Shown here piece by piece: positions 3,127 to 30,871 of a DNA stretch of 64,000 nucleotides. The position numbers and the translations under genes were made by a program. Every line of letters begins with the position of its first letter. Position 1 is the stretch's first letter. Origin of the DNA: a virus; the IMG/VR virus record IMGVR_UViG_3300027969_002881, positions 62,001 to 126,000 of that record, one strand, 5' to 3'. The notes under the pieces are model-generated. The model did no database searches, was not told where the DNA came from, and saw only the letters and a list, made by a program, of their open reading frames with translations.

Positions 3127-3882
3127 TTAATGTCCTTTTATGATATTTATTTGTTCTAAGATGTATTCTGCTAAAAATTTATAGGCATGTTCGTCAAAAT
3201 GCTTGCAGGAATATTGTTTAAAACCCGAATTCAATAAGAGTTGTGTCATGCCGAATGTACTGTCCCATGCATCTGCATATCTAATTATGGGTAATTTTTT
3301 TCCTAATAAAGACATTTTGGGCAATACCTCTGGGTGTAATACAGTGGAAGTAAAAAAAGATTCTATATTTAAATCGTCTAGCACCGCCTTAAGAGAAAAT
3401 AAACTGTTGCGTAAAATTTTTTCACTAAATATATCATCGTTAAAACTTTCGTAATGCATACGTACAAAGTCTGAGAATTTATGGTTAGTAAAGTCCAGGC
3501 ACCACGAACCAATGCCGCCGGCTATAATTTCAGTATGTATAGTATCATAATGTAGTGGATCTTCTGGCACTATAGTCAATGTTCGACCAGTATTATGATT
3601 GACTGGCAATTCAAATCTAGATAATTCTGATCCTGCAAAAATTACTAGATATTTTTCATTATGACTATACTCTTGCTCTAGATATTCATAGAGTACCCTA
3701 ATTGAACGATAATTAGATCCTCCCGGTGCTCCTAAATTCACAGAAGTTTTAAAATTACCCGCTTTTTCTAATTGTCGAACCCAGCTTCTGTTATGGCAAG
3801 ATTCTGCATTCAAATCATCTCCTAAATGACCGTATACAAAGCTATCACCAACTACAACAAGGGTTGTGTCATTGAATACCAT
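3127..3882 (-). CDS. SGNH/GDSL hydrolase-like protein
   Basis: 251 residues. Block I is VVGDSFVYG with the nucleophile Ser at residue 14. A block II-like NLGAPGGSN lies at 49-57, with Gly and Asn for the oxyanion hole. Near the C-terminus D230 and H232 (HFDEHAY) are candidates for the remaining catalytic residues, although the spacing is DxH rather than the usual DxxH. SGNH enzymes are esterases, or acyltransferases that add or remove O-acetyl groups on glycans. There is no signal peptide, so it should act in the host cytoplasm or on the virion. It is one of six such proteins in this run, and its 3' end overlaps the next gene by 14 bases. Confidence 0.72.
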   Translation of the reverse strand: MVFNDTTLVVVGDSFVYGHLGDDLNAESCHNRSWVRQLEKAGNFKTSVNLGAPGGSNYRSIRVLYEYLEQEYSHNEKYLVIFAGSELSRFELPVNHNTGRTLTIVPEDPLHYDTIHTEIIAGGIGSWCLDFTNHKFSDFVRMHYESFNDDIFSEKILRNSLFSLKAVLDDLNIESFFTSTVLHPEVLPKMSLLGKKLPIIRYADAWDSTFGMTQLLLNSGFKQYSCKHFDEHAYKFLAEYILEQINIIKGH

Positions 3883-9435: not shown

Positions 9436-10180
9436 AATACTCTATGTCTTTACTGGGCACAACAAAATCTGACAACATCAACGGTAATTCAAATCTGTTA
9501 TTTTCTATTGTATCTATTATTTTATTAGCTAGTATCATATTGTTTTCTTCTGATAAATGACACTTGCGATAGTCAGTGAAGTATTTATCGTCTTTTATGT
9601 GACCAAAATTAATGTCATTATTTTTATATTTTTCTACAAAACCTAGACTATGCTGTTCCATAAATTGAACTTCTATTAGACTAGTCTCATCGCCAATATC
9701 TTCAACTGAATCGTTGAAACAATTAATAAAAATTGTATTGTTAGTAGATCTCTTAAGTTTGTCAAGCAATGCATAGTGAAATTCTTTTTCTACTTCGTAG
9801 TCTTTCCAATAAGCATAGTATGTTACCAGACTAGAATAAACATTTTTTAACAACTCGTAATTCTCAGGAGGGAATTTTTCATTACGCATTTGAAATGTCA
9901 ATAGAGATGATAAGTTATTATAGCCCGCTCTAGACACATTTTCTTCTAAGAATTTAGAATATAATCTATGTGTTTCTGTAATTAAAAATATGTTTACATC
10001 GTATTTGTCATGATGTTCTTGGAACTTTTTGTAACTCCAATAAAAGCTAGTACCTTGTGCGGCATAATTAGTAACTGTATTATATTTTTCTTTAACTACA
10101 TCAACCCAAGCAGGGCCTTGAATATCTCTAGACTCAATTTCATATGAAGCAAAGCTGTCGCCATATATTGCTATTCTCAT
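9401..10180 (-). CDS. SGNH/GDSL hydrolase-like protein
   Basis: 259 residues. Block I is IAIYGDSFA with the candidate nucleophile Ser9. NYAAQGTS at 38-45 fits block II. A C-terminal His in YRKCHLSEENN near residue 207 is the probable catalytic His, with no clear Asp at the canonical distance. It lacks a signal peptide or membrane segment. Being coupled on both sides to radical SAM genes, through a four-base overlap with 10177-11352 and a long overlap with 8242-9435, suggests that it acts on the same intermediate, perhaps adding or removing an acyl group. This functional link is inference. Confidence 0.68.
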   Translation of the reverse strand: MRIAIYGDSFASYEIESRDIQGPAWVDVVKEKYNTVTNYAAQGTSFYWSYKKFQEHHDKYDVNIFLITETHRLYSKFLEENVSRAGYNNLSSLLTFQMRNEKFPPENYELLKNVYSSLVTYYAYWKDYEVEKEFHYALLDKLKRSTNNTIFINCFNDSVEDIGDETSLIEVQFMEQHSLGFVEKYKNNDINFGHIKDDKYFTDYRKCHLSEENNMILANKIIDTIENNRFELPLMLSDFVVPSKDIEYYVKWKDIHGSD

Positions 10181-11352
10181 TTAAACTGTTCCTCAAATGC
10201 ATCATGTGTAGTGCCGCAAGTCTTGGCACATACTGCCAGTTTTCCTTCGGCACAGCTATTTTTATTCCAGCTATTAGGGATAATTTCCTGCATAAATTTA
10301 CCTTCAACAACATGCTTAATGCTATGTTGTTTCAAGTCAAGTGAATCTAAGCCAGCTTCATTGATAGCGTTCCATATTTGACCGCCCTTAGCTTTCCAAT
10401 ACCAAACATACATTTGACCAGCTGTCCAACAACACGGTTGTAAATATCCTTCAGCTGTGACATAAATGCTTTTCTCTTCTGCTACTTTACATTTGATAGG
10501 TACAGTGTCCCAATACTTTTCCATGGGCTTTTTCTTTTCTGGATCAGCGGTAAATTTTTGAGCACCAACTCGACCTTTTAATCCATTTACTGTAGTTATG
10601 AGATCATTTGGGTTTGTATTATCCTGTCTTTTAGCAATGTTTTCTAAATCTTTAATAGCGGCATTATGATATTTTGGATCAGTGGGCATTGTCAACAACG
10701 TAGTAGCAACTCCTTTGCGATTGCCAGCCTGATGGTCTTGTTTAACTTCGCCGCGAGTATTACTAAAAAATCTATTACTCTTTTTAATGTTAAACTTTTC
10801 AAAGCCCATCTTAGTTGCTAATGTCTGTGCTTCTTCTACTTGATGTTCATTGTGTGCAAATACAATATAGTCCCAACGTGCTCTGCCGCCCGCATCTATA
10901 AATGCCTGAGCATTTTCCATTATCTTAGTCCACACAGTTCCTTGACGATATAAATGATTAGTGTCTTCTAATCCATCTACGCCAAATATAACGTAACCTT
11001 TTTTTCCTATTACACCCGCAAGCTTGGCCCACCATTCAGGCTTTTTCATACTGCCATTTGTATGCATACTAAGATTAAGGCTTGAGTTATGTTCTCTAAA
11101 ATAAGCAAACGCTTCTAATGTATCTGCAGCTACGGCGGGATCACCATAGTTGCCGCACATATACAATCTGTTTAACTGTTTAATAAACTCTACAGGGAAT
11201 ATGTGTTTAATGTCAGCAATGCCGAGTTCTGCGCCGTGTAACAATGGGCTTACTTCGCCCCCATTTAAATTCCTAGCACACATAGGACAAGAGGCATTAC
11301 ATGCTTCTGTCATTTCTAAATGCACAGTGGTAATATCACTGTAATTATACAT
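10177..11352 (-). CDS. Radical SAM/SPASM-type protein
   Basis: 391 residues. The triad C18, C22 and C25 (CNASCPMC) opens the protein. CGNYGDP, MHTNGS and FGVDGLEDTNHLYRQ follow, and the last segment is shared with the paralog at 6244-7308. The SPASM-like tail has a KCK, then GYLQPCCW, then CAEGKLAVCAKTCG, giving six or more cysteines. Compared with the paralogs it has an insertion of roughly 50 residues between about 210 and 270, rich in Lys and Asn. Its start abuts the stop of the upstream gene (TAATG-type junction at 11352). Confidence 0.86.
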   Translation of the reverse strand: MYNYSDITTVHLEMTEACNASCPMCARNLNGGEVSPLLHGAELGIADIKHIFPVEFIKQLNRLYMCGNYGDPAVAADTLEAFAYFREHNSSLNLSMHTNGSMKKPEWWAKLAGVIGKKGYVIFGVDGLEDTNHLYRQGTVWTKIMENAQAFIDAGGRARWDYIVFAHNEHQVEEAQTLATKMGFEKFNIKKSNRFFSNTRGEVKQDHQAGNRKGVATTLLTMPTDPKYHNAAIKDLENIAKRQDNTNPNDLITTVNGLKGRVGAQKFTADPEKKKPMEKYWDTVPIKCKVAEEKSIYVTAEGYLQPCCWTAGQMYVWYWKAKGGQIWNAINEAGLDSLDLKQHSIKHVVEGKFMQEIIPNSWNKNSCAEGKLAVCAKTCGTTHDAFEEQFK

Positions 11353-12209
11353 TATTTTACTCCGTAAAGAGCGTACCTTTTATATTTAGGAAATGTAATT
11401 TCTCCGCGATAGTAAATTGTTGTCATTGGATACTTTCTTAAAAAGTCTGGCAACGTTTCGGAGTAATTAATATGCTCTTCAATGGGATCGCTGTTATTTT
11501 CGATGAACACAGTTGTACCTGACTTTAATTTGTTAAACCATTCGGTGTCCATATGTTCACTGCTGGTATTGATAACCAAGTCTGCATCTAGAATCTTATC
11601 ATAGAAGGTTAGATTGTTTTCATGGTCAAAACAATCGTTGATAGATTTATTTTCAACGTAAGCATCTGGATTAATAATTTCTATCAATTCGTTGATACTA
11701 GCATCTGGATCAATGCTAAACAATTTGTTATAATTAATGTCTTTAAGATATAGGCTATGATGTGTTAGCCAGCCGCCGATTAATAATACGTTTGTAAAAT
11801 TTAAGTTAAACTTGGACAAAATTTCAGCCATCCATATCTTACTAAGTACTTGACTTTTAGAAAAAATTATAGGTAATACAACTTCGTAACCTTCATCGAT
11901 CATTTTAAAAAGTTTACGAATAAATTCATCTTCTGGCCATATAGAATATAAAGTACCAACAATATCTCTTGTAGTGACTTCGTCTAGTGAACATACATTT
12001 GTGTAAAAATTTAATCGATCTTCACGGAACGCTACTGGATACTTGTTATAGTCATCGGATATTAAATTTTTAAGAGACCATGGCTTTGATTGTTGATCTG
12101 CATATTTTAGATTTATAATATTTCTTATAAATTGCTTTTTTCTTACATCTTGTGTAAAATGAAAATATTTTTCTATTCCAAAAAGCCACGTGATTTTATC
12201 TGTGTCCAT
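11352..12209 (-). CDS. Putative class I methyltransferase-like protein
   Basis: 285 residues, not confidently recognised. Residues 139-150 (TNVLLIGGWLTH) resemble a SAM-binding motif I with a following acidic residue at D167 (FSIDPD). Residues 210-221 (DLVINTSSEHMD) resemble motif IV of Rossmann methyltransferases. The N-terminal 130 residues are helical, with no recognised domain. The loop is IGGW instead of the usual GxGxG, so activity is uncertain. It starts inside the end of the upstream GT-like gene (14-base overlap). It could alternatively be another nucleotide-sugar-binding Rossmann protein. Confidence 0.5.
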   Translation of the reverse strand: MDTDKITWLFGIEKYFHFTQDVRKKQFIRNIINLKYADQQSKPWSLKNLISDDYNKYPVAFREDRLNFYTNVCSLDEVTTRDIVGTLYSIWPEDEFIRKLFKMIDEGYEVVLPIIFSKSQVLSKIWMAEILSKFNLNFTNVLLIGGWLTHHSLYLKDINYNKLFSIDPDASINELIEIINPDAYVENKSINDCFDHENNLTFYDKILDADLVINTSSEHMDTEWFNKLKSGTTVFIENNSDPIEEHINYSETLPDFLRKYPMTTIYYRGEITFPKYKRYALYGVK

Positions 12210-14654: not shown

Positions 14655-16127
14655 TCATGATAATACAGGTACATTGTATTTCTTGTAAAAGTCTTTGGCA
14701 TCTTTAAGATTGTTAACCATTGGCTGACCTTTGATGTTCAAGCTGGTATTCAATAACATTGGACAGCCAGTTTCACTGTACCAATTTTCTAATAGTTTAC
14801 GGAAGCCCGGGCTGTCATTTTTGCCCACTGTTTGTACACGACTTGTTCCGTCTTTGTGTATGATAGCAGGAAACTCGTCAGGTCGAGTACAACGAGCAAC
14901 AAACTGCATATATGGACTAGCGGTTATATTTGCGGGCATATCGAAATAGTCATGTACATGTTCTTCTAGGATTGCTGGTGCAAATGGTCTGAATTGCTGT
15001 CTTCGCTTGATTGCGTTGACTGTGTCTTTGATTTCGGAACCTCTAGGATCTGCCAATAAGCTTCGGTGCCCAAGAGCACGTGGTCCGAACTCAGCCTTGC
15101 CGCTAGCCACTCCCACAATTTTATCTCTTGTAAGTATACTAATAGTTTCATCAACTGGATATTCCTCGCCTATGTTTGTGCCGAGATATGCTCCTGGCCA
15201 CGTAACTTGCTCGCCAAAGAAAGCGGCCACTGCTCCGACACTACTTCCAGCATCTCCGGGGTTTGGCATAATCCAAACTCGGTCCCAGTCTCCTGTGATT
15301 TCACTGTTGGCCACACAGTTAAGAGCACAACCGCCCATTAATACAATGTTCTTGCTGGGCAAGTTTGCTCTAGCCCAACGACTAATACCTTGTAGTATTT
15401 CAGTGTACACTTGTTGAGTAGCGGCGGCTAAATCAAATGTATCTTGTTCGCTGAGTAAATCTAAACGCCAATCAGGACAGCCACGATGCAAGTTACGTTT
15501 AAACTTAATTTCGGGTCCGTTGATTACACTGAAGAAATCTTCGTATATATCGGCTTTGTATTTGTTGGGGTCACCGTATGCTGCCATGCCCATGAGAATA
15601 TATTCTTCTTCATTGGGTTTTAATCCTATACGTTGTGTCATAGCACTGAACCAAAGTCCTAGACTATCCGGATAACCTTGTGTATAGACTTTCTTTAAGT
15701 CATTGCCCTGACCTTGCCATACAGTAAGAGTTTCAAACTCGCCAATACTGTCAATAACGACAACTGTAGCATCACTTAATCCGCTGGTATAATATCCTGC
15801 GGCAGCATGACTTTTGTGATGTTCACCGAAGTGTAAAGATTGTGTTAAATTATATTTTGCAAGATACGTTTTAACATCATTTTCTTTAGTTCTGTCGCCT
15901 TGCCCTGCCATAAATTGTCTAGCAGTTTTTAAGTCAGGATTTTCATACCAAACAATTAAGTCTGGTTTTCCATACTGTTCAGCATCCTGTATAATACCTG
16001 CACACAAGTCGCCATCGTTTTTAATTCCGCTATATCGTTCGCTGTGTGCCGCAAATTGTAATTGTTTATCGTGCCAAACGCTAACGGCAGCGTCGTGACT
16101 GTTGGCACTAATTCCCCAAATATTCAT
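14655..16127 (-). CDS. Carbamoyltransferase, NodU/CmcH/TobZ family
   Basis: 490 residues. The N-terminal Kae1-like domain starts WGISANSHDAAV and has SERYSGIKND at about 29-38. HFGEHHKSHAAAGYY at 99-113 supplies the metal-binding histidines used to make carbamoyl-adenylate. MGGCALNCVANS near 265 and AEFGPRALGHRSLL near 348 are family hallmarks, and the C-terminal domain contains LLNTSLNIKGQP. Enzymes of this family use carbamoyl phosphate and ATP to carbamoylate a hydroxyl on a sugar or antibiotic. A phage relative that carbamoylates hydroxymethylcytosine in DNA has also been described, so DNA modification is an alternative. The sugar genes around it favour a glycan acceptor. It is coupled by ATGA to the small gene upstream. 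Confidence 0.9.
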   Translation of the reverse strand: MNIWGISANSHDAAVSVWHDKQLQFAAHSERYSGIKNDGDLCAGIIQDAEQYGKPDLIVWYENPDLKTARQFMAGQGDRTKENDVKTYLAKYNLTQSLHFGEHHKSHAAAGYYTSGLSDATVVVIDSIGEFETLTVWQGQGNDLKKVYTQGYPDSLGLWFSAMTQRIGLKPNEEEYILMGMAAYGDPNKYKADIYEDFFSVINGPEIKFKRNLHRGCPDWRLDLLSEQDTFDLAAATQQVYTEILQGISRWARANLPSKNIVLMGGCALNCVANSEITGDWDRVWIMPNPGDAGSSVGAVAAFFGEQVTWPGAYLGTNIGEEYPVDETISILTRDKIVGVASGKAEFGPRALGHRSLLADPRGSEIKDTVNAIKRRQQFRPFAPAILEEHVHDYFDMPANITASPYMQFVARCTRPDEFPAIIHKDGTSRVQTVGKNDSPGFRKLLENWYSETGCPMLLNTSLNIKGQPMVNNLKDAKDFYKKYNVPVLS

Positions 16128-16282: not shown

Positions 16283-16825
16283 TTAATTAGCAGAATATAA
16301 TTCAGGATATTCAACCAACACATGAATACCTTTTTGTTCGGTGGCTGTTTTATAAGCAGTGGAAATGTCTAAGGGGTTTTTTAAATCATAAAACTTAGTG
16401 TTTGGGCACATACTTTTAAATTCTTCAAAGTAGCTACCTTTATGTTGATGTCCAGGATCTAAGGGCTTGTCGCTGCCTTTGCCCAATCTAATCAATACAT
16501 GAGCTTCTTTGCCAGTCATTAATTCAAATTTGTCCAAGTGATTCACTAATTGATTTGTTGCGCTGATAACAAAATCCCATCTTGGATAAAAGCTAACAAC
16601 TGTTTTGCCGGCCATCGCCAAGCCTAAACTCATACCCATTTGTGTTTCTTCCATTACGGGGAGTTCAATCATTTTGTCCTTAGGCACATTGCCTAATGTT
16701 GTGCTCATTGGATTACCTGCGTAAACAATCTGTTGTCCAATAAAAAGAATATTGTCGTTAGCCGCTAGTACTGTCATAGCGGCAGTCAGTGCATCTTTAT
16801 ATGGCGTTAGTTGTGGTGTTGTCAT
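16283..16825 (-). CDS. E1-beta-like thiamine-diphosphate enzyme, Pyr domain only
   Basis: 180 residues, aligning by motif with the Pyr domain of pyruvate/acetoin dehydrogenase E1-beta. Matching segments are IELPVMEETQMGMSLGLAMAG, with the Glu (59/60) that activates the thiamine ring, and FYPRWDFVISATNQLVNH. LIRLGKG and PGHQHKGSYFE follow, with H126 and H128. The usual C-terminal transketolase domain is missing, because E1-beta proteins are normally about 325 residues. The complementary PP-domain protein is encoded 7 kb upstream at 23814-24443. Together they could form a minimal heteromeric ThDP enzyme performing decarboxylation or two-carbon transfer, for instance to make a branched or keto sugar; that role is inferred. 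Confidence 0.8.
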   Translation of the reverse strand: MTTPQLTPYKDALTAAMTVLAANDNILFIGQQIVYAGNPMSTTLGNVPKDKMIELPVMEETQMGMSLGLAMAGKTVVSFYPRWDFVISATNQLVNHLDKFELMTGKEAHVLIRLGKGSDKPLDPGHQHKGSYFEEFKSMCPNTKFYDLKNPLDISTAYKTATEQKGIHVLVEYPELYSAN

Positions 16826-16826
16826 T

Positions 16827-17687
16827 TTAAATTTCTCTTTCTAAATGTTTTATTATATTGTCTGCTATTACACGATGGCATTTCTTAGATGGGTGAAGAT
16901 CTCCTGGAGTAACTTCGAACTCATTGACATCCCAATATATAGTAAGTTCAGGGTTAGTGTATCCTCTGAATTGATTATATTTGTCTTCCATCATATGTTC
17001 TATGCTAGGATAGTTATTGCCGTTGTAGTCGAATTTAATCATCCTACTTCTCAGCCAATCATCTTGTTCAATATATTTAACAAGGTCCATGGGCCAGCTC
17101 ATTACATAAACTTTAACACCGTTGTCAGTGAAAGTTTGTAAAAATTCTTTGACATCTTGTATTTCTTTTTTCGTGGCACGATCAATATATTTGTCCAATG
17201 TTAAGTTATTGTCTACTAACCATTGCGGAAAGATTGGATTATTCATTACTTCATTATGAGTTACTTCATACAATGAGTCCAACCTAGTAAAGCTTTTTGC
17301 TCGCGGCCATTGCGTAAACTGATAAAATACATGACTTACATCTTCATAATTATACGTAGGAGGGGTAGCGGGATGATTACCTTTATTTTTTTCTGGATCT
17401 GTTTTATCCATAAAACATCGTCTCCACCAATCATGTATACTATAGCTGGCGCCGCCATTCCATGGTTGGCAAAGTTCAAATGTGTTAAAATGATTTGCCA
17501 CGAATCTAGGAAATCTAATGGACTTCATATATTCGATATGCGTGTCTTTAACTAGTTCAACTTTGTAGTGATTCAATGGAGGTTCCTCTAGTGTAGACAT
17601 ATTTGAATAATAATACAAACCTTGCCCCCATGTAAAGCTACATCCAGCAAAAATCATTCCCTTAGTAACTGGGCTCTGGCTTTTCAT
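16827..17687 (-). CDS. SGNH hydrolase-like protein (GCSF type)
   Basis: 286 residues. Block I is MIFAGCSFTWGQG with Ser17; the Asp of GDSL is replaced by Cys, as in several phage SGNH proteins. PWNGGASY near residue 78 fits block II. The end has GDLHPSKKCHRVIAD with D263 and H265 as candidate acid and base. A long insertion between blocks II and V, rich in aromatic residues and Pro, makes it bigger than a minimal SGNH domain. It is coupled by four bases to the upstream gene and separated by one base from the Pyr-domain gene. Confidence 0.7.
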   Translation of the reverse strand: MKSQSPVTKGMIFAGCSFTWGQGLYYYSNMSTLEEPPLNHYKVELVKDTHIEYMKSIRFPRFVANHFNTFELCQPWNGGASYSIHDWWRRCFMDKTDPEKNKGNHPATPPTYNYEDVSHVFYQFTQWPRAKSFTRLDSLYEVTHNEVMNNPIFPQWLVDNNLTLDKYIDRATKKEIQDVKEFLQTFTDNGVKVYVMSWPMDLVKYIEQDDWLRSRMIKFDYNGNNYPSIEHMMEDKYNQFRGYTNPELTIYWDVNEFEVTPGDLHPSKKCHRVIADNIIKHLEREI

Positions 17688-18103
17688 TTATTTCTATTTG
17701 GCCAACTAATTTCCCAGTCTTTAAAGTCTGCTGCCAAGCAGTCTACTTTATAGTCCTTACGTCCGCCAACGCTTTCTTGAATTACGTTTTTACTAGTATT
17801 ACGAATACCATTTAAGCCATGCGTTAATTCTAAGTTGTTGCCATCTTTAATGCCACGACGATAATTGCTTTCGTTGTGCCAAATATGTAAATTCATTTGG
17901 CTTACAACTACTATAGCGCGAATAACATCAGCAGTAACTTCTACATCTTTTTCTTCTAGTATTAGTTGAATATCATGTACAATGGCAGAAATTTCTTCAC
18001 TGTATTCTTGTTTGTGTTCAGGAATAAAAACTTCCTTAAGTTGAACGATGCTTAAACGATCGATCAAATCTCCTAGTGTATGCAAGTATTTTCTCTCAGT
18101 CAT
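17684..18103 (-). CDS. Small helical protein with LHIWHNE motif (DUF4254-like?)
   Basis: 139 residues, mostly helical: LGDLIDRLSIVQLKEVF, EEISAIVHDIQLILEEK, then SQMNLHIWHNESNYRRG and LNGIRNTSKNVIQE. The sequence of an L-x-x-W-H-x-E motif followed by an LNxxRN-type motif recalls DUF4254 proteins, which occur in cell-envelope and glycosyltransferase gene clusters, but the resemblance is short and the assignment is weak. It lies between the SDR genes and an SGNH gene, with four-base overlaps on both sides. No catalytic function is proposed. Confidence 0.4.
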   Translation of the reverse strand: MTERKYLHTLGDLIDRLSIVQLKEVFIPEHKQEYSEEISAIVHDIQLILEEKDVEVTADVIRAIVVVSQMNLHIWHNESNYRRGIKDGNNLELTHGLNGIRNTSKNVIQESVGGRKDYKVDCLAADFKDWEISWPNRNK

Positions 18104-19035
18104 AAATTTGTAAAGTTCCTGTTATTGAATGGAACAGTCATTTGATATGCACTGATCAATTGCTTGATACCATAGTCCAAATCAAACATCGGTTTCCATC
18201 CTAGACTTTCTAACTTAGCGTTAGAAACTATGTAATTTCGTTTGTCGAAATCTTGTTTGAATTCATCTTGCTTAATCACTAATGCAGGAATTTGTTCTTT
18301 AATCTTTTCAGCTAATTCTAGTTTACTTATATTTGCTGTACTTAATCCTACATTGTATACTTGGCCGCGACATTTGTCATAATTATCAATCATGAATTCA
18401 AATGTACGAGCAATGTCTTGTACATGGATATAGTTACGTTTAAAGTTTGCTTCAAACAATACCATATATCCATCTACCACTGCTTTGTAAACAAAGTCAT
18501 TGACTAACAAGTCTTGGCGCATACGTGGACTTACACCAAACACAGTGGCAAGTCTTAGAATGACGCCATTACCTTTTTTAAGCACGTAATCTTCTGCGTC
18601 GCATTTAGTTTGTGCGTATAAGCTTAATGGCTTAAACGGACTTTCTTCAGTGATAATGTTTTCACTACTTCCATATTGACTATTTGTATTGGGCAATATC
18701 AGCATTTGATCATCACGCAACACATCGACGACATTTTTAATTTGTTCGTAGTTAACTTGTACCGTCAATTCTGGATTAGCTTTGCAGGCTGGCATGCCAA
18801 CAATGGCTGCCAATGGAATAACTACGTCAGCCAAGCCAACTTGCTCAGTTAATAAATCTTTATCCCTGACATCACCTGCAATGAAATGAAATTTAGGTTG
18901 TTTAAACAGATGTAATAGACTTGTTTGTTTATACATCAAGTTATCTAATACAGTAACTCGATGTCCTTTAAACAATAAATGTTCAGCTAATATGGATCCG
19001 AGATAGCCCGCTCCGCCTGTGATTAAAATTTTCAT
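18100..19035 (-). CDS. NAD-dependent epimerase/dehydratase (extended SDR)
   Basis: 311 residues. GGAGYLG at 7-13 is the NAD-binding loop, and LDN at 30-32 follows the second strand. The catalytic pair Y140 and K144 is in the canonical YxxxK spacing (YAQTK). A downstream FKRNYIHVQDIA block is typical of nucleotide-sugar epimerases and dehydratases. It probably interconverts a nucleotide sugar in the cytoplasm (UDP-, GDP- or dTDP-linked; not determinable). It is the only one of the three adjacent SDRs with the canonical catalytic spacing. It overlaps its neighbours by four bases. Confidence 0.86.
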   Translation of the reverse strand: MKILITGGAGYLGSILAEHLLFKGHRVTVLDNLMYKQTSLLHLFKQPKFHFIAGDVRDKDLLTEQVGLADVVIPLAAIVGMPACKANPELTVQVNYEQIKNVVDVLRDDQMLILPNTNSQYGSSENIITEESPFKPLSLYAQTKCDAEDYVLKKGNGVILRLATVFGVSPRMRQDLLVNDFVYKAVVDGYMVLFEANFKRNYIHVQDIARTFEFMIDNYDKCRGQVYNVGLSTANISKLELAEKIKEQIPALVIKQDEFKQDFDKRNYIVSNAKLESLGWKPMFDLDYGIKQLISAYQMTVPFNNRNFTNL

Positions 19036-20024
19036 GGTTTGCTATTTGGATCGTATTGGTCTTTGTTGGTTTTATACCATCTCATTGCATTGTGTAATGC
19101 ATCGCGTAGTTCGTATTTTGGTTTCCAGCCCAATGCGTTAATTTTCTCTGAACTTAACAATCTCACTGAGATCATGAATGCTTTGTTATTAACATATTCA
19201 ATGGGATTTTCATTATTATCCAACTCTCTAAGCATGTGAAGCACTTCATTCACTGTATAACCTTTTCCATAGCATACATTATATATATCATACTTGTCAA
19301 CATTTTCTGCAACAAATACAATGCCGTCTGCCATGTCTTCAACGTGTAGTAAGTCACGAACATCTTTGCCGTCGCCCCATACTGGAATAGGATTTAATCC
19401 GTCTGCTACTTTACGAATACTAGCAGGTGTTACGTGACACTTTTCATAGTCAAACTTATCATTGGGACCAAACGCATTACTAGGACGAATGATAACGCAT
19501 TGCATTGGATTATGAATCTGATTACTGAAAAAATCACATAATGCTTCACTGTAACGCTTCATACCACCCACAGCCTTGTATACTGGAATTAAAGGAGTGC
19601 TGTTAATATCAATGCCTTCATGACAATATTCATCACCCATGTCTGGGTATACTGTATTTGAACTAATGAATACAAATTTCTTAACGCCATTGCGCCAGCT
19701 ATGTTCCATTAAGTTTGTATTCATTTCAATGTTAGGTGTAACATGTAGTAAAGGATTAAATTTAGTGTCCAATGCGTTACTGGTATTTGCCGCGCAATGA
19801 ATAACAACATCAACGTCTTTACTGACTTTTTCACAGAACTCAGCTGTGCGTAGATCACCATGGTGATTCTCTACTGTTTCCCATCCGTAAAAGTCTTTAC
19901 GCAATGTTCTGCTATAAGTTGTACTGCGTACATTCTTATAGCCTTTTTCAAATAATGTTCTTAATATGTGGCTGCCAATAAATCCTGAGGCGCCCGTAAC
20001 TAAAATTTTGTCTGTTTTTTTCAT
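19032..20024 (-). CDS. NAD-dependent epimerase/dehydratase (extended SDR), atypical site
   Basis: About 330 residues from the ATG at 20024, which has GGAAA just upstream; a TTG four codons earlier is less likely. GASGFIG at 11-17 binds NAD. CAANTSNALD, VFISSNTVY and IIRPSNAFGPNDKF are typical extended-SDR blocks. The catalytic segment reads PVYKAVGGMKRYSE, in which Tyr and Lys are separated by six residues instead of three. A related YxxVGxMKR arrangement seems to occur in some nucleotide-sugar dehydratase-like families, so this may be a genuine variant. The likely substrate is a nucleotide sugar. Confidence 0.82.
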   Translation of the reverse strand: MKKTDKILVTGASGFIGSHILRTLFEKGYKNVRSTTYSRTLRKDFYGWETVENHHGDLRTAEFCEKVSKDVDVVIHCAANTSNALDTKFNPLLHVTPNIEMNTNLMEHSWRNGVKKFVFISSNTVYPDMGDEYCHEGIDINSTPLIPVYKAVGGMKRYSEALCDFFSNQIHNPMQCVIIRPSNAFGPNDKFDYEKCHVTPASIRKVADGLNPIPVWGDGKDVRDLLHVEDMADGIVFVAENVDKYDIYNVCYGKGYTVNEVLHMLRELDNNENPIEYVNNKAFMISVRLLSSEKINALGWKPKYELRDALHNAMRWYKTNKDQYDPNSKP

Positions 20025-20025
20025 T

Positions 20026-21000
20026 TTATTTTCCAATATAGTTTTCTATGGTTTTCTTAATACCATCTCGCAATGTAGTTCTGGGTAACATATTATATTT
20101 ACGTTGCTTATCCGCACTTAGGCAGCGCACAGGGTCGCCATTTGTCTTTGTTTCATCCCAAATAATTTGTTTTTCTTCACCACTGATTTCTTTGTATACA
20201 TCAATGATAGTTTCAATTGTTTCTTTAATGCTAACTGCTGTACCGCAACCAAAGTTAACAATGTCTTTGACTTCTTTGGTAACTGCGTCAATACTGGCCT
20301 GAGCAACATCATCACCAAACACAAAGTCACGGCGAGCACTGCCGTTGCCCCAACATGTAATGCTATTGCCCGGAACATTTTTCAATTTCCAAATGTTAGA
20401 ACTGATAACTGTGGCATCTTCTGCAAAGTTGTCATTGATACCATAAATGTTACTTGGGCGAATAACTGTCCAATTATCCCAGCCATATTGTACTGTTAGA
20501 GATTCCAAGGTTGCTTCGCCCATGCGCTTGGTCCAGCCTGGATACCAGTCATTGCGACTGGGAGTTGTCTTCCAAACATCGTCTTCGTTCATTAGTTCAG
20601 CAGGCTGATAAACGCCCACGCTACTTAGATATACAAACCAATCTACTTTAGCATCAAACGCTGCCTTAATCATGTTAGTGTTGAACATTAACATAGGGAA
20701 CAAATAATCGCAGGGTTGTTTACTACTGCGAGCCGGACTACCTTTAACTCCGGCAATGTGTAACACAATATTAACTTCTTTCTTAAATAACTCTTCGCAG
20801 TTATGCAAATAAGTTAAATCGCAGTTAATAAACTCCACTACATTGGAATACTTGTCACATACTTCTTTTAGTTTAGGACTTTGTCTAATGTCCACAGCAT
20901 ATACTTTGCTGGCGCCTTCATGAACGCTTTTTTCAACTGCTGGTACTCCGACTAGGCCACTGGCCCCTGTTACCAATACTACTTTGTTTTCAAATTTCAT
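20026..21000 (-). CDS. NAD-dependent epimerase/dehydratase (extended SDR), atypical site
   Basis: About 324 residues. The ATG at 21000 overlaps the upstream TGA as ATGA, and this decides the start over a GTG at 21012. TGASGLVG at 11-18 is the NAD loop. VYLSSVGVYQP carries the catalytic Ser/Thr strand, and VIRPSNIYGINDNF is nearly the same as in the neighbour at 19032-20024. The catalytic region is WYPGWTKRMGE, with Tyr to Lys separated by four residues rather than three. It probably acts on a nucleotide sugar in sequence with the two neighbouring SDRs. Confidence 0.83.
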   Translation of the reverse strand: MKFENKVVLVTGASGLVGVPAVEKSVHEGASKVYAVDIRQSPKLKEVCDKYSNVVEFINCDLTYLHNCEELFKKEVNIVLHIAGVKGSPARSSKQPCDYLFPMLMFNTNMIKAAFDAKVDWFVYLSSVGVYQPAELMNEDDVWKTTPSRNDWYPGWTKRMGEATLESLTVQYGWDNWTVIRPSNIYGINDNFAEDATVISSNIWKLKNVPGNSITCWGNGSARRDFVFGDDVAQASIDAVTKEVKDIVNFGCGTAVSIKETIETIIDVYKEISGEEKQIIWDETKTNGDPVRCLSADKQRKYNMLPRTTLRDGIKKTIENYIGK

Positions 21001-22442
21001 TTTAAATACCACTTTCTTATATCGTTAAATGTTTTCTCAAATGGGTTATACTCACCAAAAGTCTTTGCATGATTGTGGTTGTATATTAAAACTTCCCTGA
21101 GCTGATAATATATATCATGTATTTCACTTAGTGATAACGCCGACAGCCTGGCAATCTCTGATTCGATTAAATTAAGCCGTTGTTTAAAATCAGTGCATTC
21201 ATCATAAGCTTCGTTGATCAATGGACTAAAAGTTTTAAACCCTAAGTCCCGTAATGTTTTTAATGTGTATGGATTACCAATTACAATAAATGGTTGTAAA
21301 TTAATAATTGGATGGTGAAATGTTTTTTCACTGATAAAAGGAAACTCGCCGCCGCCATACTCAAATGATGTTTCATTGACAATGTTAATGTATGATTCGG
21401 CAAAAAATTCTTTATTGTTATTGTTGAGATCGAAGCCATGCTTTTGATCTATAGGTAAATGAGCAGTATCAATCTCAAGCGGCAATCTAGTGGCTATAGA
21501 ATCAACCATTGATTCTAGCTCTGGAGATTCTCCTACATAATGCGCTATCGCATTATAGATTTTAAGTTTATCGGTATAATCGTGTAATGCTACAAAACTA
21601 AAAATACCATCATCTAGTAGTTTGTACTTGACTGCCATGTATGCACTTAACCAACGATGAGGTCTTTGCATATTCCTATTCATACAAATAAATCTTTTAC
21701 TGCGAATATATTCTTTGTCTAAATCTTCTGGTTTAACATAGTCAGATTTATAACCCAATGAACCGACTCTGGGATATTCATTGAACTTATCTGCTAGTTG
21801 ATTCAACACTACATAACCATTTGTTATTTTTATTTTGCTATTGGGATATGCGTCATAATGACTGTTAAATGTATTGCCTGCTATAATGACAATGTTCTTT
21901 CCGTCTATTCCGTACTGATTAAAGTATTTTTCTGTTTCTACTAAGTTTTCAGAATGTTCCATTGGATCATGAATCATGTTCAATATCAATTTAATATTAC
22001 CAGTTTGTAATCCCAACAACACCTTAGGATCTAACGTATCTATAAAGCTATATGTATATTCTACCCCATTCAACATAATTGAATAGTCGGCAAAAATTGA
22101 GTTCAATGTAAAGCAAATTTCAACAGGATAGAGATACATTGAGTTATCATATACTATCTCGTCGACAGTGATTATATTGTCAATGCCATTGGTTAGTTTG
22201 TAGTAATTATAGAAGTTTTTATGGGCCACGTGCGCCAACCATGTTGTCGAATCGTTTTGTGCTCTTAGATCATCTATTATATCTCCCTGTGATTTTGTTA
22301 CATCATCATTGAGTTTACCTAATATATAATCATTGACTACTGAAGGCAATCCGTTTATTAAAAACTCGTTGCCTTGATAATTAACATAAGAACCGCTGTA
22401 AATTATTTTTATATCGCGATTAAAGTTGTTGAATAAACTCAT
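20997..22442 (-). CDS. Putative glycosyltransferase (fucosyltransferase-like tail), paralog A
   Basis: 481 residues, one of three paralogs. The C-terminal block FISEKTFHHPIINLQPF is followed by GFKTFSPLINEAYD. The SEK-x-x-x-P-x-x-x-x-x-P-F pattern is reminiscent of the nucleotide-sugar binding site of GT10 fucosyltransferases and other GT-B enzymes. Midway there is KRFICMNRNMQRPHRW, a block conserved in paralog B. The N-terminal half has no recognised motif. It probably acts as a cytoplasmic glycosyltransferase, because no membrane segment is visible. The family assignment is by motif only. Confidence 0.5.
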   Translation of the reverse strand: MSLFNNFNRDIKIIYSGSYVNYQGNEFLINGLPSVVNDYILGKLNDDVTKSQGDIIDDLRAQNDSTTWLAHVAHKNFYNYYKLTNGIDNIITVDEIVYDNSMYLYPVEICFTLNSIFADYSIMLNGVEYTYSFIDTLDPKVLLGLQTGNIKLILNMIHDPMEHSENLVETEKYFNQYGIDGKNIVIIAGNTFNSHYDAYPNSKIKITNGYVVLNQLADKFNEYPRVGSLGYKSDYVKPEDLDKEYIRSKRFICMNRNMQRPHRWLSAYMAVKYKLLDDGIFSFVALHDYTDKLKIYNAIAHYVGESPELESMVDSIATRLPLEIDTAHLPIDQKHGFDLNNNNKEFFAESYINIVNETSFEYGGGEFPFISEKTFHHPIINLQPFIVIGNPYTLKTLRDLGFKTFSPLINEAYDECTDFKQRLNLIESEIARLSALSLSEIHDIYYQLREVLIYNHNHAKTFGEYNPFEKTFNDIRKWYLK

Positions 22443-23829
22443 AAACTATTTTATATGGATTAGTGTCTTTGAAACTTTCAAAGTGGTTTCTATTATGGAT
22501 TAATATGTCTGTCATTTCATAATATAACTTATGTAATTCTTCTTGACTTAATGCATTTAATTTTAATATTTCAGATTCTATCATTTGCATTCTTTTAAGA
22601 TAGTCTGTTTCTAGATCATAGCTTTCATCGATATAAGGACTAAAAGTTTTAAAACCTAGACTTTGTAAATGCCTCAATGAACCATAGTCGCCGACAAAAA
22701 TAAAAGGTTGTAGATTAATAATAGGCCTAAATGTTTTCTCTGAAAAGAAAGGGCCATTTTCTATGGGACCAAAAAAGCTTGTTTCAGACGTAATATGAAA
22801 ATAAGTATCTGCATACCATTCTTTTTTATTGTTATCAGTGACGAAACCCCTTTTTTGATCAGGTGACAATTGATCAGTATCTATCTCATAGGGTAATAAA
22901 TTTATCACTGAATTAACTTCACCATCAGAGATTGAATTAGTAGTCAATGACGTTATACTATGTCTAATATGCTCTTCATTGTCTGCTGTATTAACAAAAC
23001 TATAAATGCTGTTCTTTAATAAATCATGCTTTATTGCCATGTGTGCTAGATAATATCTATGCGTTCTCATTGACCTATTAAAGCATAAGAATTTTTTGGG
23101 TCTAATCTTCAACGGATCTAAATCATCTTCACGCATGATATCAGATTCATAGCCCAATGATGTGATTCTAGGAAACTCATTTAATCCTTTGGCCTGCTGT
23201 TGTAATGGAAGATTTCCATATGTAAAATTAGCCTTACTGTCAGGAAAATGCTGTTTATGTGTTAATAATTCATTGCCAAATATAACGATCAGGTTGGCGG
23301 CACTGATGCCTAATTTTTCCAGTCTCAATTCTATATCATTTACACTGGGTGAGTAATGTCCAGGATCATGCATATTACAGACAACAATTTTTACTTTGTT
23401 ATTCCGCAAATGATTAATTATCGGCTCTATGATTTCTTCAAATGAATAGCTAACTGTGGTGCCATCTAAATCCACTGACGTAATGTCATTCAATGCATTA
23501 ATAGATGTTGCTATTTCAATTGGAAATATGTATGTAACATTGTCATCGCCAGGGTCAATTTCATATACTGGTACAACATTGCTTGCTCCGTTGTTGTTTA
23601 AGAAATAATAATGGAAATTGCCAAGATTGTAAGCCATGTTCCAGCCAATCTTAGAATCTGCTTTAAGCAGATCTATACAATTATGCGGGTTTAACTCATT
23701 GACATCATTGATATATTTTTTATCAATGTGATTCATTACCGATTGCGGTATGCCATTGCTGAAATAAAGTCTCTCACCGTTGGGTTTAGTATATATGTGA
23801 GAGTATACTGCTTTTAAAATACGACCCAT
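22420..23829 (-). CDS. Putative glycosyltransferase (fucosyltransferase-like tail), paralog B
   Basis: 469 residues, the closest relative of the next gene downstream. FFSEKTFRPIINLQPFIFVG and GFKTFSPYIDESYD form the conserved C-terminal block. KKFLCFNRSMRTHRYYLA matches the middle block of paralog A. The two overlap by 23 bases and look like a tandem duplication followed by divergence. The protein contains an MHDPGHY segment in the position of MIHDPMEH in paralog A, so the N-terminal domain is also shared. The start overlaps the ThDP enzyme gene by 16 bases. Confidence 0.5.
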   Translation of the reverse strand: MGRILKAVYSHIYTKPNGERLYFSNGIPQSVMNHIDKKYINDVNELNPHNCIDLLKADSKIGWNMAYNLGNFHYYFLNNNGASNVVPVYEIDPGDDNVTYIFPIEIATSINALNDITSVDLDGTTVSYSFEEIIEPIINHLRNNKVKIVVCNMHDPGHYSPSVNDIELRLEKLGISAANLIVIFGNELLTHKQHFPDSKANFTYGNLPLQQQAKGLNEFPRITSLGYESDIMREDDLDPLKIRPKKFLCFNRSMRTHRYYLAHMAIKHDLLKNSIYSFVNTADNEEHIRHSITSLTTNSISDGEVNSVINLLPYEIDTDQLSPDQKRGFVTDNNKKEWYADTYFHITSETSFFGPIENGPFFSEKTFRPIINLQPFIFVGDYGSLRHLQSLGFKTFSPYIDESYDLETDYLKRMQMIESEILKLNALSQEELHKLYYEMTDILIHNRNHFESFKDTNPYKIVYEFIQQL

Positions 23830-24443
23830 TTGCCTGTTCCATAATGCGGGAATTTGGATTTGTATTCATACCAAATCACATCTTCAGGAATATCACGTTT
23901 GTGATTCCATGTTGCTACTGTGGGTGTATTGGTAGATACTGCGTTATCCTCTACAACAAAATATAGGGGCAAATTAAAGTTTCTAGCATACTTGTGTATT
24001 TCATAAAAGACTCCGCTTTCAAAACTCATGTCTCCAATAAAACACCAAACTTTTTCATCACTGCCATTATCTTTGATTGCCTGTGCAACTCCTAGCGCAA
24101 TAGATAATGTTCCGCCCACAATGGCGCTGGAATAAAATTTATTGTCTAAGTTACATATAGTAATACTTTTACCGGCTAATATATCTTGTTCAATGACTGA
24201 AGGATCGATGCCTTTAAGTAGTGCATGGTAATGACTACGCCATGTAGAAAACACCCAATCATCTGTTTTAATTCTCTTAAAAATTTCAATTAACGGCTCT
24301 TCGTTGCCGTTTGATAAGTGTACTGGACCACGAATTTTAGCAGTTTCCCAATGGCTTACAATCTTATCCTCAAACGCAATTAAATCTTCTTTGCTTAGAG
24401 TAATTGGTCGCACAACTTCATATTTGTCAATGTTTTTAATCAT
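23814..24443 (-). CDS. E1-alpha-like thiamine-diphosphate enzyme, PP domain only
   Basis: 209 residues with the E1-alpha signature. FSTWRSHYHALLKGIDP at 65-81 corresponds to the conserved R-x-H region of E1-alpha. The ThDP/Mg motif begins at G137-D138 (FIGDMSFESG) and ends at N167 (VVEDNAVST), the expected GD-x(about 28)-N layout. SSAIVGGTLSIALGVAQ is the helix preceding it. It is much shorter than normal E1-alpha (about 360 residues). With the Pyr-domain protein at 16283-16825 it could form a two-subunit core without the C-terminal domain. This would be a carboligase, decarboxylase or transketolase-like step on a sugar or keto acid; the reaction is inferred. Confidence 0.82.
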   Translation of the reverse strand: MIKNIDKYEVVRPITLSKEDLIAFEDKIVSHWETAKIRGPVHLSNGNEEPLIEIFKRIKTDDWVFSTWRSHYHALLKGIDPSVIEQDILAGKSITICNLDNKFYSSAIVGGTLSIALGVAQAIKDNGSDEKVWCFIGDMSFESGVFYEIHKYARNFNLPLYFVVEDNAVSTNTPTVATWNHKRDIPEDVIWYEYKSKFPHYGTGKWVVF

Positions 24444-24452
24444 ATTTGTCTT

Positions 24453-25706
24453 TCATCTATCTCTTGCTTGTAACACTGGCTTATCTGTAGGCCATTCAAT
24501 ATTGACTCTCTTGTCGTTCCATTTGAGCACACCTTGATTTTTTTCATCAACATATTCTCCTGGATAAAATAAATTATAATGAAATATACAATCTGTTAAC
24601 GCATAGTGCCCGTTTGCAAAGCCTGGTGGTATTAACACTTGGTCCCGAGTGGATTCGGAGATTATATAGCTTTCCCATTTGCCATAATTAGGACTTGATT
24701 TTCTTACATCAACTAACACAAGATAAATGTCGCCCACCAACGCCTGTACTAATTTCCAAGTTTTTTTATCATAATGTAAGCCACGCAATACGCCTTGATA
24801 TGATTTGCTAAATCTCCCATGTATATTAATGTCGTTTGGTAATAATTTCATAATGGGATGAGTTTCACTATGGAATGTTGTAAATATTTCTCCTCGATAT
24901 TCTTTATAAACGCTGGGATGATATATTGGTACATCTGTGCCAAATTTATCTAGATATGAGACATCGAAAGAGTCCCACTGGCGTTGTTTATAATTTTTAC
25001 CAGTGCTAGTAGTACTGATAGTTTCTGTAGTATTATCAATTGTCATAGTTTCGTCGGTGTTGCTTGTATCATATTCTGTAAATTTAATACCATTTAAGCA
25101 ATATAATACATCGTTTTGATTTGGGTCAGACATCCTAGTATAACCTAAATTTTTTAATTCATTGTCGAACTCGTGTCTTGTTGTGCCATTTTTATAATGG
25201 CCGAATCCAGCGACTTCTACCCATATGCATTTTGGCTTAAAATTTCCCATACTGGTAATAATTTTAAATTCTGCGCCTTCGGCATCGATGTGTAACACAT
25301 CGGGCGACACATTAAACTTTTGACAAAAGCTTTCTAGTCTATAGCTTTGTACTTCATAGGGATCGCTGTATTTTTTTCCGTGTGATTCAAATGGCACATC
25401 TTCAAGTTTAAACATACTGCCTGACCATGGATGCAGATTACCAAATTGAGTAGAAGAAGGATTAAACTGAACTAATCCGTCTATGTCCGAAAATGCATAT
25501 TTAAAATAGTGAATATTAAATTTGGCAGCAAGTGGTTCATTACTCGCATGCCAATACTCAAACGGTTCAAACGCATATATTTCTGCTGTAGGAATTAATT
25601 CTCGAACTTTACGCGACGTATCTAATAAGGCGCATCCTATTTCAAAGAATACAAATTTTTCATTTGGAAAGTTTTCTTTGACCCAATTTAAATTTAAAAA
25701 GCTCAC
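24453..25706 (-). CDS. FkbM-type methyltransferase fused to RmlC-type 3,5-epimerase
   Basis: 417 residues in two domains. Residues 1-205 are an FkbM-like methyltransferase: FEIGC at 21-25, AFEPFE at 45-50 and HIDAEGAEFKII at 139-150. A Thr/Asp-rich linker spans about 212-236. Residues 250-417 match dTDP-4-dehydrorhamnose 3,5-epimerases: GVLRGLHYDKK with Arg308 and His311, IPPGFANGHYAL at 359-370 where the usual FAHG has become FANG, and a terminal IEWP. The protein would methylate a sugar hydroxyl and epimerise a keto-sugar. The start is GTG, overlapping the upstream TGA as GTGA; no ATG is available before residue 97. Confidence 0.85.
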   Translation of the reverse strand: MSFLNLNWVKENFPNEKFVFFEIGCALLDTSRKVRELIPTAEIYAFEPFEYWHASNEPLAAKFNIHYFKYAFSDIDGLVQFNPSSTQFGNLHPWSGSMFKLEDVPFESHGKKYSDPYEVQSYRLESFCQKFNVSPDVLHIDAEGAEFKIITSMGNFKPKCIWVEVAGFGHYKNGTTRHEFDNELKNLGYTRMSDPNQNDVLYCLNGIKFTEYDTSNTDETMTIDNTTETISTTSTGKNYKQRQWDSFDVSYLDKFGTDVPIYHPSVYKEYRGEIFTTFHSETHPIMKLLPNDINIHGRFSKSYQGVLRGLHYDKKTWKLVQALVGDIYLVLVDVRKSSPNYGKWESYIISESTRDQVLIPPGFANGHYALTDCIFHYNLFYPGEYVDEKNQGVLKWNDKRVNIEWPTDKPVLQARDR

Positions 25707-28774: not shown

Positions 28775-29436
28775 ATTAATCTAATATCTCTTAAGAATAA
28801 TTTTATTTTCCTAGCTAGTTCAGCATGTGCTTCTTCGTTGGGGTGATACCCATCTTTACATTTCATATCTTTTTCTGTGCAATAAACATTGAATATAGAT
28901 TTATCATGTCCCAATACAAATTTCTTTGTAGGTAGTAATTTAATTAAATTCTTGTATTGATCTTCAAATGGTTCTCTGTCTAAGTAGCCTTCTAAGAACG
29001 AGTTAACAAATGCATACTGTATATTTCTAGATTCTAGGAAAGATGATACAAAGATTTGTTGCATGTAATATTCCATTAGGCCTTCATAGTCATTATACAT
29101 GTGTTCATACCACACATCTTTCATTTTTTTAAGATATGGTTCGTAAGGATCATGACCCAGTAATACATTTTCCCATATTTTCTTTTCTGGAAAATAAACT
29201 GCTGTGCGTGAAATACCAGTCCAGGAAAACACAACTAATGTTTTTTCGGGATTAGGTATATCAGCATAATCGTTCAGCAAATTTATTATGCTGAGTTTAT
29301 TCGATCCGCCTGGTATACCTCTATTGGTCACTGGCGTTTTCATTAATTCACCTAGTTTGGCAGGCCAGGCGTCGCTGTTTGCTACTCCATCGCCAGCTGT
29401 AAAGCTGTCTCCATATGCATAAATCTTATCGATCAT
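28771..29436 (-). CDS. SGNH/GDSL hydrolase-like protein, minimal domain
   Basis: 221 residues, the most canonical of the six. Block I is YAYGDSFTAGDG with Ser11. Block II is NRGIPGGSN, with Gly and Asn. VVFSWTGISR is the block III-like strand. DGYHPN supplies D195 and H198 in normal DxxH spacing. It lies directly downstream of two twitch radical SAM genes, with an 11-base overlap. All catalytic residues appear present, so an active hydrolase or acyltransferase is likely. Confidence 0.8.
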   Translation of the reverse strand: MIDKIYAYGDSFTAGDGVANSDAWPAKLGELMKTPVTNRGIPGGSNKLSIINLLNDYADIPNPEKTLVVFSWTGISRTAVYFPEKKIWENVLLGHDPYEPYLKKMKDVWYEHMYNDYEGLMEYYMQQIFVSSFLESRNIQYAFVNSFLEGYLDREPFEDQYKNLIKLLPTKKFVLGHDKSIFNVYCTEKDMKCKDGYHPNEEAHAELARKIKLFLRDIRLI

Positions 29437-30871
29437 TTTCCCTATATACTCCTATTTCGGCAAAAGATATTCCGGATTGCTCGACTAATTTAATAATCTC
29501 ATAATTTTTATTAAGTTCTATACTTTCATACCAATCAGCAATTTCCGGAAAAGTATTAATTATGTTTTTGTTTCTTCTAGCATCATACTGCGAATAGAAA
29601 CTCTTAAAGTCATGAAACAATGCAGACTTATCATGCGTAGTAGATACATGTCCAGTTTGAACAACTTCTAAATAGTCAATTAGTCTTTTGATACTGGCTT
29701 TCTCACCAGCTTCTAAATACTGACTATCTTTGTGTAAATCATACCACGTAGATAGTCTTGATTGAACTTCGTCTTTGAGATCGTTGGGCAATGTAATTGG
29801 ACTCATGTATGCAGGCCAGCGCAGTATGTTTAGATCCAGATAAGGTCTATTATTGCCGTACTTTGCTTTGAGTTCCAGCATATCGTCCATGAACTCAGTG
29901 ATACTGAACAAACACAGATTAGATATCGTCATCATGATTGTGACATTTCTAAATTTAGCATTTTCAATAAAGTTAACCAAGTTACTGCGCCATACTTGAT
30001 AGTCCATGCCATCACGTAGATACTCTGCATGTAAGCCGAAGCTTTCATTACTGGTAAACAAATCAAATTCTCTAACTGGCAGTGTTTTAGTTACTTCAAT
30101 TAATCGTTCCAGTGCCCTAGGGCTTGATCCAAGATTACTGTTAACCGCAAAGCGGATGTCCACGTATTCATGCTGTTGCATTATTTCAATAAAGCGCCAG
30201 AAGTTTTGACTTACTGTGCATTCTCCGCCGGTGATACGTAGCTCTTGTAGGCTCTTAGATAATTCAGGCCACCATTCAAAGAAAGCTTCTACATAAGGAT
30301 TGTCATCTAAATGTTTTCCATATGCTGTACTCCAAGAACCATCAGTTTGGTATGCGCCACCACCACCACCTTGGGCAATAAAATTCTGGTAAGGTCCATT
30401 CTTATTAATGTCCTGACTCCATGCTGTGCTGTAACCTGCGTTACAGTAACTACAAGCAAAATTACATTGTCTATCGAAACTGATCTCTAATGTTTTGAGA
30501 TTAACATCGTCAGCCCAGTTCATGTCCTGGATCTTTTTAATATCTTCTGCGCTGTATATAATACTTTTATTAATACGATCACTGATATTATCTCTGCCAA
30601 TGCCTTCTACTTTCCAACAATAGCCGCACTCTGCTGGCTTTTTGCCTTCCAGCATCATCTTACGCATACGCTTTTTATGATCAGTGTTATGTAATGCGCT
30701 GGGATTATAACTGATTTCACTGACATCAATTGAATGAGGCAAAGGCAAATGACAACTACCTGTATAGCCTGATCCTAAAAAGATACTGGCGTTATACCAT
30801 TTGGCCGCGCAAAAGCTAGGACTGATCGAGTTGAGATTCTCATCTCTCCATTTAATTAAGTCATCAGACAT
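29426..30871 (-). CDS. Radical SAM protein, twitch type
   Basis: 481 residues. The N-terminal domain has FCAAKW (C21), C40 followed by His instead of the CC pair, and C82-x-x-C85 (ECGYCW). The core triad C136, C140 and C143 (CNFACSYC) is followed by ITGGECT, a GGE motif without the usual Pro. A Gly-rich AQGGGGGAY stretch lies between the triad and GGE. It is the neighbour and paralog of 30864-32441, and both share SCHLP or SCHHP in place of the CC-containing segment of other twitch members. This defines a second subfamily here. The substrate is unknown. Confidence 0.86.
   Translation of the reverse strand: MSDDLIKWRDENLNSISPSFCAAKWYNASIFLGSGYTGSCHLPLPHSIDVSEISYNPSALHNTDHKKRMRKMMLEGKKPAECGYCWKVEGIGRDNISDRINKSIIYSAEDIKKIQDMNWADDVNLKTLEISFDRQCNFACSYCNAGYSTAWSQDINKNGPYQNFIAQGGGGGAYQTDGSWSTAYGKHLDDNPYVEAFFEWWPELSKSLQELRITGGECTVSQNFWRFIEIMQQHEYVDIRFAVNSNLGSSPRALERLIEVTKTLPVREFDLFTSNESFGLHAEYLRDGMDYQVWRSNLVNFIENAKFRNVTIMMTISNLCLFSITEFMDDMLELKAKYGNNRPYLDLNILRWPAYMSPITLPNDLKDEVQSRLSTWYDLHKDSQYLEAGEKASIKRLIDYLEVVQTGHVSTTHDKSALFHDFKSFYSQYDARRNKNIINTFPEIADWYESIELNKNYEIIKLVEQSGISFAEIGVYRENDR

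Follow-up and report, generated by a model that had tools for sequence, protein, structure and literature searches.

Does the DNA studied here encode a single thiamine diphosphate (ThDP) enzyme whose two halves are specified by genes about 7 kb apart, and, if so, what does that enzyme make? The window, that is, the whole 64,000-nucleotide stretch that was analysed, corresponds to positions 62001-126000 of IMG/VR record IMGVR_UViG_3300027969_002881, a virus record of 127,886 bp with genes for the baseplate and further structural proteins of a phage. A first-pass annotation, based on the letters of the window, had proposed that two of its genes encode the pyrophosphate-binding (PP) and pyrimidine-binding (Pyr) domains of a minimal ThDP enzyme related to the E1 alpha and E1 beta subunits. 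The two genes are the following:

23814-24443, minus strand: PP-domain subunit (E1-alpha-like), 209 aa; Pfam E1_dh, GD-x28-N motif
16283-16825, minus strand: Pyr-domain subunit (E1-beta-like, without the C-terminal transketolase domain, TKC), 180 aa; Pfam Transket_pyr, Glu59 and His128

Two single-domain proteins with ThDP signatures

We compared both proteins with Pfam and NCBIfam. The PP protein matched E1_dh with an E-value of 1.4e-13 over profile positions 8-169 of 300 only, and thus about 130 C-terminal positions of E1 alpha have no counterpart in it. Its best NCBIfam match was pyruvate dehydrogenase (PDH) E1 alpha (7e-25, far under the equivalog cut-off), while the match to NCBIfam transketolase was far weaker (2.5e-6) and that to Pfam TPP_enzyme_C (4.2e-5) was weaker than that to E1_dh. 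The cofactor motif reads G137-D138-x28-N167, which agrees with the GD-x25-30-N definition of the ThDP motif of PP domains (PMC2831816), and R69-x-H71 aligns with YRAHG of human E1 alpha. For the Pyr protein, Transket_pyr was the sole Pfam match (2.9e-7, over the gathering score, positions 5-167 of 174). Its catalytic-type Glu, E59 in PVMEETQMG (P56-V-M-E59), aligns with the E1-beta Glu position, and H128 closes the QH motif (GHQH), so that the E1-alpha and E1-beta motifs named in the first-pass annotation are present in the PP and the Pyr protein, respectively. No TKC domain follows the Pyr domain, the chain ending at 180 aa. The same annotation held that large parts of normal E1 subunits are missing; both proteins are indeed short and without TKC, but each chain amounts to roughly a whole PP or Pyr domain of minimal size and is not a fragment.

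The catalytic residues are conserved in both families. In the PP protein, R69, G137 and D138 were kept in 113/113 relatives and H71 and N167 in 112/113, and in the Pyr protein E54, P56, E59, R82, G125 and H128 were kept in 120/120 sequences, which include the catalytic Glu on whose presence the initial proposal had been made to depend. The ratio of nonsynonymous to synonymous substitution (dN/dS) against the closest relatives was 0.035-0.036 for PP and 0.050-0.056 for Pyr, indicating purifying selection on both genes. The AlphaFold model of the Pyr protein (pLDDT 91.2, pTM 0.89) had E1-beta chains as its best PDB matches, with 3exe_B at the top (query TM-score, TMq, 0.85), and gave a TMq of about 0.7 against the split-gene transketolase 6yaj. 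Unrelated gene fragments or decaying remnants could be suspected from the shortness of both genes as compared with E1 subunits and from the 7 kb between them; given this degree of purifying selection, catalytic residues that are invariant or nearly so in both sets of relatives, and the fused homologues and co-occurrence described below, we consider that explanation extremely improbable.

Searches for the remaining parts of an E1 complex or a transketolase gave a negative result. TKC (PF02780) was not found over the cut-off in 14 virus records, with control genomes positive in 14/14, and lipoyl E2 (PF00198) was not found in the same number of records, with controls positive in 10/14, both results applying to the recovered sequence of records that are possibly incomplete, and E2 might still be supplied by the host. 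Given these absences, the enzyme is not a PDH E1, nor is it a canonical transketolase, and a PDH-like complex was rejected because E2 was not found. They also bear on the view that the pair is an auxiliary metabolic gene set, either a phage PDH E1 or a pentose-phosphate enzyme, that reprogrammes central carbon metabolism. The top curated matches carry the names PDH E1 alpha and, for the cyanophages, transketolase, which would be in line with it; however, the scores lie far under the equivalog cut-offs, TKC and E2 are absent as stated, and the context was that of a sugar locus in every clade examined, which together leave such a role very improbable.

Fused homologues and the pairing of the two genes

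Both proteins matched one PHROGs family, phrog_34187, the PP protein on positions 7-198 (3e-51) and the Pyr protein on positions 237-400 (2.6e-19). Cyanophages S-SM2 (ADO97531.1) and P-TIM68 (AIR93527.1) carry PP and Pyr in a single protein of about 400 aa, labelled 'transketolase central region-containing protein' in the cyanophage records and of unknown function in PHROGs, and the fused form was also found in many other loci, with the domain order PP then Pyr. A single-chain AlphaFold model of the fused relative from locus L092 (pLDDT 90.1, pTM 0.92) aligned best, along its whole length and thus across both domains, with transketolases of the PDB (TMq 0.62-0.70).

In the window, the PP and Pyr genes are separated by 6,988 bp and seven contiguous minus-strand genes, in accordance with the 7 kb and the shared gene run reported at first. 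To place this arrangement among its relatives, loci were collected from the 80 top-ranking matches of each query; the counts given here include near-copies, and 82 non-redundant PP/Pyr pairs remain when these are set aside. In unfused loci with both genes, PP and Pyr were on the same strand in 133/133 and PP came first in 127/133, with gaps from an overlap up to 9.3 kb. Since, in addition, each protein corresponds to a different half of phrog_34187, their pairing is not due to chance. The idea that some phages carry PP or Pyr alone was considered and rejected, because larger contigs without a partner inside 10 kb carried it at a greater distance; the other lone-gene cases were short or cut contigs, apart from the genome-contig loci L085 and L086. 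These two, filed under Saccharibacteria and Flavobacteriales, carry PP genes 76% and 69% identical to that of the window, respectively, and may be phage contigs binned into metagenome-assembled genomes.

Pairwise distances among PP proteins and among Pyr proteins were correlated, with r = 0.95 over the 82 non-redundant pairs and 0.82 over 48 separated pairs, and none of 999 permutations gave a correlation as high. A quick tree showed two deep clades, one mainly of separated genes, which includes the window, and one mainly of fused genes; some branches were long, and adjacent PP and Pyr genes were present in both clades. As for variants of gene order, in L004 (LR756501, a 735 kb phage; 8394-10612) Pyr precedes PP, with a radical-SAM gene separating the two, and a related radical-SAM gene also adjoins the pair in L093, L095 and L098.

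Taken together, the fused homologues, the co-occurrence, the invariant catalytic residues, the expected folds and the purifying selection indicate that the pair is very probably one functional ThDP enzyme, in agreement with the viral two-gene enzyme proposed initially. By homology, the PP and Pyr subunits would assemble into an (alpha-beta)2-type complex in which ThDP would be held between the GD-x28-N motif of PP and Glu59 of Pyr.

The family is widespread in viruses, PP relatives being encoded in at least 570 confirmed viral IMG/VR stretches. A further 14 PP loci were in genome contigs, including Patescibacteria, Pacearchaeota, Nitrospirae and Prochlorococcus, some of which may themselves be viral. 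In our literature search we found no paper describing this phage family. What is already known comprises the domains, the idea of E1-type sugar branching and the fused phage protein annotated in two isolates; what is new is that a form of the E1/transketolase lineage does without TKC, that its two domains may be encoded far apart, side by side or in one chain, and that it is widespread among environmental phages.

The sugar locus and the probable reaction

The genes around the pair, all on the minus strand, are as follows; several of their names rest on matches under curated cut-offs.

24453-25706, minus strand: FkbM methyltransferase fused to an RmlC-like (dTDP-4-dehydrorhamnose 3,5-epimerase) domain; dTDP_sugar_isom 8.8e-33, Methyltransf_21 3.8e-11
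22420-23829, minus strand: member of a recurrent family of about 470 aa, glycosyltransferase-like by context only; no Pfam match
20997-22442, minus strand: second member of the 470-aa family; no Pfam match
20026-21012, minus strand: short-chain dehydrogenase/reductase (SDR), GDP-fucose-synthase-like; Pfam Epimerase 5.6e-35, NCBIfam GDPFucSynFcl 1.3e-35 (below cut-off)
19032-20036, minus strand: SDR, GDP-fucose-synthase-like; Pfam Epimerase 7.6e-47, NCBIfam GDPFucSynFcl 1.3e-39 (below cut-off)
18100-19035, minus strand: SDR, nucleotide-sugar epimerase/dehydratase-like; Epimerase 6.2e-34, galE 8.9e-25 and dTDP-glucose dehydratase 4e-24 (both below cut-offs)
17684-18103, minus strand: 139-aa protein, recurrent in split loci; cluster c8, 41 loci, no Pfam match at 0.001
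16827-17687, minus strand: 286-aa protein, SGNH-like by eye only (GCSFTWGQG); cluster c7, 42 loci, no Pfam match
14655-16127, minus strand: NodU-like carbamoyltransferase; Pfam Carbam_trans_C 1.9e-53, phrog_1601 9.4e-103
624-1694, 3869-5275, 7305-8261, 8242-9435, 10177-11352, 29426-30871 and 30864-32441, minus strand: radical-SAM-like genes

The RmlC-like epimerase and the fucose-synthase-like SDRs around the pair bear out the sugar locus of the first-pass annotation, and a sugar pathway for this locus is well supported. In split loci, an RmlC-like gene was at position -1 or -2 of PP in 116/132, fucose-synthase-like SDRs were present in 118/132 and the 470-aa family in 124/132, and the 286-aa family was at -1 of Pyr in 49/132. 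Whereas the RmlC-like domain of the window is fused to FkbM, it is encoded by a separate gene in the closest relatives. In neither of the two fucose-synthase-like SDRs was a canonical YxxxK found where it would be expected, and just 34/142 members of their cluster have it; either the motif is shifted or the two are not ordinary reductases. At least seven radical-SAM-like genes, some below the Pfam cut-off, flank the sugar genes of the window in the same run. In three other loci, Pyr is fused to a domain of about 400 aa (L020 5214-6989, L026 10623-12380, L033 10481-12223), which by eye resembles the 470-aa family at 20997-23829 of the window.

On these grounds, we consider it likely that the enzyme acts in sugar biosynthesis and, with less confidence, probable that it forms a C-C bond on a sugar, while its acting specifically by branching a nucleoside diphosphate (NDP)-keto-sugar is a tentative suggestion. 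As a whole, we lean towards a TKC-less two-subunit ThDP carboligase that builds a branched or chain-extended sugar. Such an enzyme would transfer a small activated group, acyl or ketol and probably C2, to a sugar intermediate, and the product would be an unusual sugar for the glycan locus of the phage. In the split clade, to which the window belongs, the likeliest acceptor would be a nucleotide-4-keto-sugar, on which the neighbouring RmlC-like epimerase and fucose-synthase-like SDRs would presumably act, and the enzyme would then resemble in its action AviB1/AviB2 and KbDH, which are of the E1 type and branch sugars. That this product is branched or chain-altered, as first suggested, is our best guess from the neighbouring genes and the known E1-type keto-sugar branching enzymes.

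Several points weigh against this carboligase. The NCBIfam comparison revealed no confident nucleotide-sugar 4,6-dehydratase among the SDRs of the window, the known E1-type branching enzymes consist of full alpha and beta subunits and not of the minimal form, and the HldE/HldD-like neighbours of the fused relatives suit a chain-extending transketolase equally well. The last point leads to the reading in which the pair is a minimal transketolase-like ketol transferase, whose product, a sugar phosphate of the heptulose type or with a chain extended in some other way, would be converted into an NDP-heptose-like sugar by C1 phosphorylation, dephosphorylation, nucleotidylation and epimerisation. 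In its favour, a PfkB/HldE-I-like kinase was present in 84/90 fused loci, and kinase plus SDR, cytidylyltransferase-like nucleotidyltransferase (NTase), haloacid dehalogenase (HAD) phosphatase and cupin occurred together in 20/56 well-flanked fused loci. Neighbours in L214 matched HldE-I (4e-28), HldD (8e-61), HldE-II (1.5e-29) and EcbF/BcbF phosphatase (6.6e-10), although all of these lie below equivalog cut-offs. The split loci L007 and L083 likewise have NTase, kinase, cupin and HAD genes after Pyr, but only a minority of split loci carry the kinase block. The virus record of the window itself has a cupin and an HldE-II-like NTase side by side at record positions 10690-11458 (L262 2691-3459), about 75 kb from the ThDP genes; however, an HldE-I-like kinase, sought in that record to extend the heptose reading, was not found there. 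Transketolases rank first in the fold search of the fused model, whereas the PP sequence is far closer to E1 alpha than to transketolase (7e-25 against 2.5e-6). The window's own neighbours fit branching and heptose synthesis alike, because related epimerases and C4-reductases act on GDP-heptoses in Campylobacter. On balance, we regard the transketolase-like alternative as unlikely, although it is the main rival.

The gene adjoining the fused form bears on another alternative. A Zn-alcohol dehydrogenase was at position -1 in 79 of the 85 fused loci having an upstream gene (n=90 in all), and it could reduce an aldehyde released for a later step by a two-subunit 2-oxo-acid decarboxylase like ComDE or RhiEF, in which PP and Pyr are likewise small separate subunits and no further domain is present. 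The lineage, however, is that of E1 and transketolase, the PP protein matching E1_dh better than TPP_enzyme_C and the Pyr protein matching Transket_pyr only, and in the fused proteins PP precedes Pyr, which together render a decarboxylase quite improbable.

Returning to the TKC-less carboligase, we put forward, as a possibility short of an even chance, an undescribed ThDP family in fused, adjacent and far-separated states that provides a large group of environmental phages with a so far undescribed class of glycan sugars, either branched or of higher carbon number. If this holds true, some transketolase or PDH E1 calls in viromes may denote sugar-locus enzymes and not a reprogramming of central carbon. 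The family would also offer a very small carboligase, whose expression the fused homologues simplify, and it raises the question of whether TKC is dispensable in the E1/transketolase lineage.

Comparison with known systems

In Campylobacter jejuni, GDP-heptose is modified by the C3/C5-epimerase Cj1430 and the C4-reductase Cj1428 (PMC10680097), and this epimerase and reductase logic resembles, by family only, that of the RmlC-like and fucose-synthase-like genes of the window. The C. jejuni pathway, which starts from sedoheptulose-7-phosphate, was described without a ThDP enzyme (PMC10680097).

In ComDE and RhiEF, PP and Pyr are separate minimal subunits to which no third domain is added, and the phage pair, with 209 aa and 180 aa, likewise has one domain in each chain. 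In contrast, these two enzymes, sulfopyruvate decarboxylase and phosphonopyruvate decarboxylase (both cited in PMC12141560), are of the decarboxylase-type lineage, while Pfam places the phage pair in the E1/transketolase lineage. As compared with transketolase, the PP and Pyr folds and their order match those of the fused phage model, but TKC is missing from the phage enzyme and its sequence is closer to E1.

Branching of deoxy-keto-sugars is known or has been proposed for the E1-type alpha/beta enzymes AviB1/AviB2, Pau11/Pau12 and KbDH (PMC12247030, PMC4753412). These alphaKADH2 enzymes of deoxy-sugar pathways resemble the phage pair in being E1-like and encoded by two genes, and they share its lineage, with an E1_dh-type alpha and a Transket_pyr-type beta subunit, the phage Pyr model being nearest to E1-beta chains. 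Enzymes of the AviB1/AviB2 type have full E1-type alpha and beta subunits and come from antibiotic clusters. Their beta subunit carries a C-terminal TKC, in contrast to the phage Pyr protein.

The phrog_34187 proteins of cyanophages are homologous in both PP and Pyr, also lack TKC and are likewise encoded inside a phage sugar cluster. They differ in consisting of one fused chain, encoded between a Zn-alcohol dehydrogenase and an HldE-like kinase, whereas the window has a separate gene for each domain, with 7 kb between them and an RmlC-like gene as neighbour.

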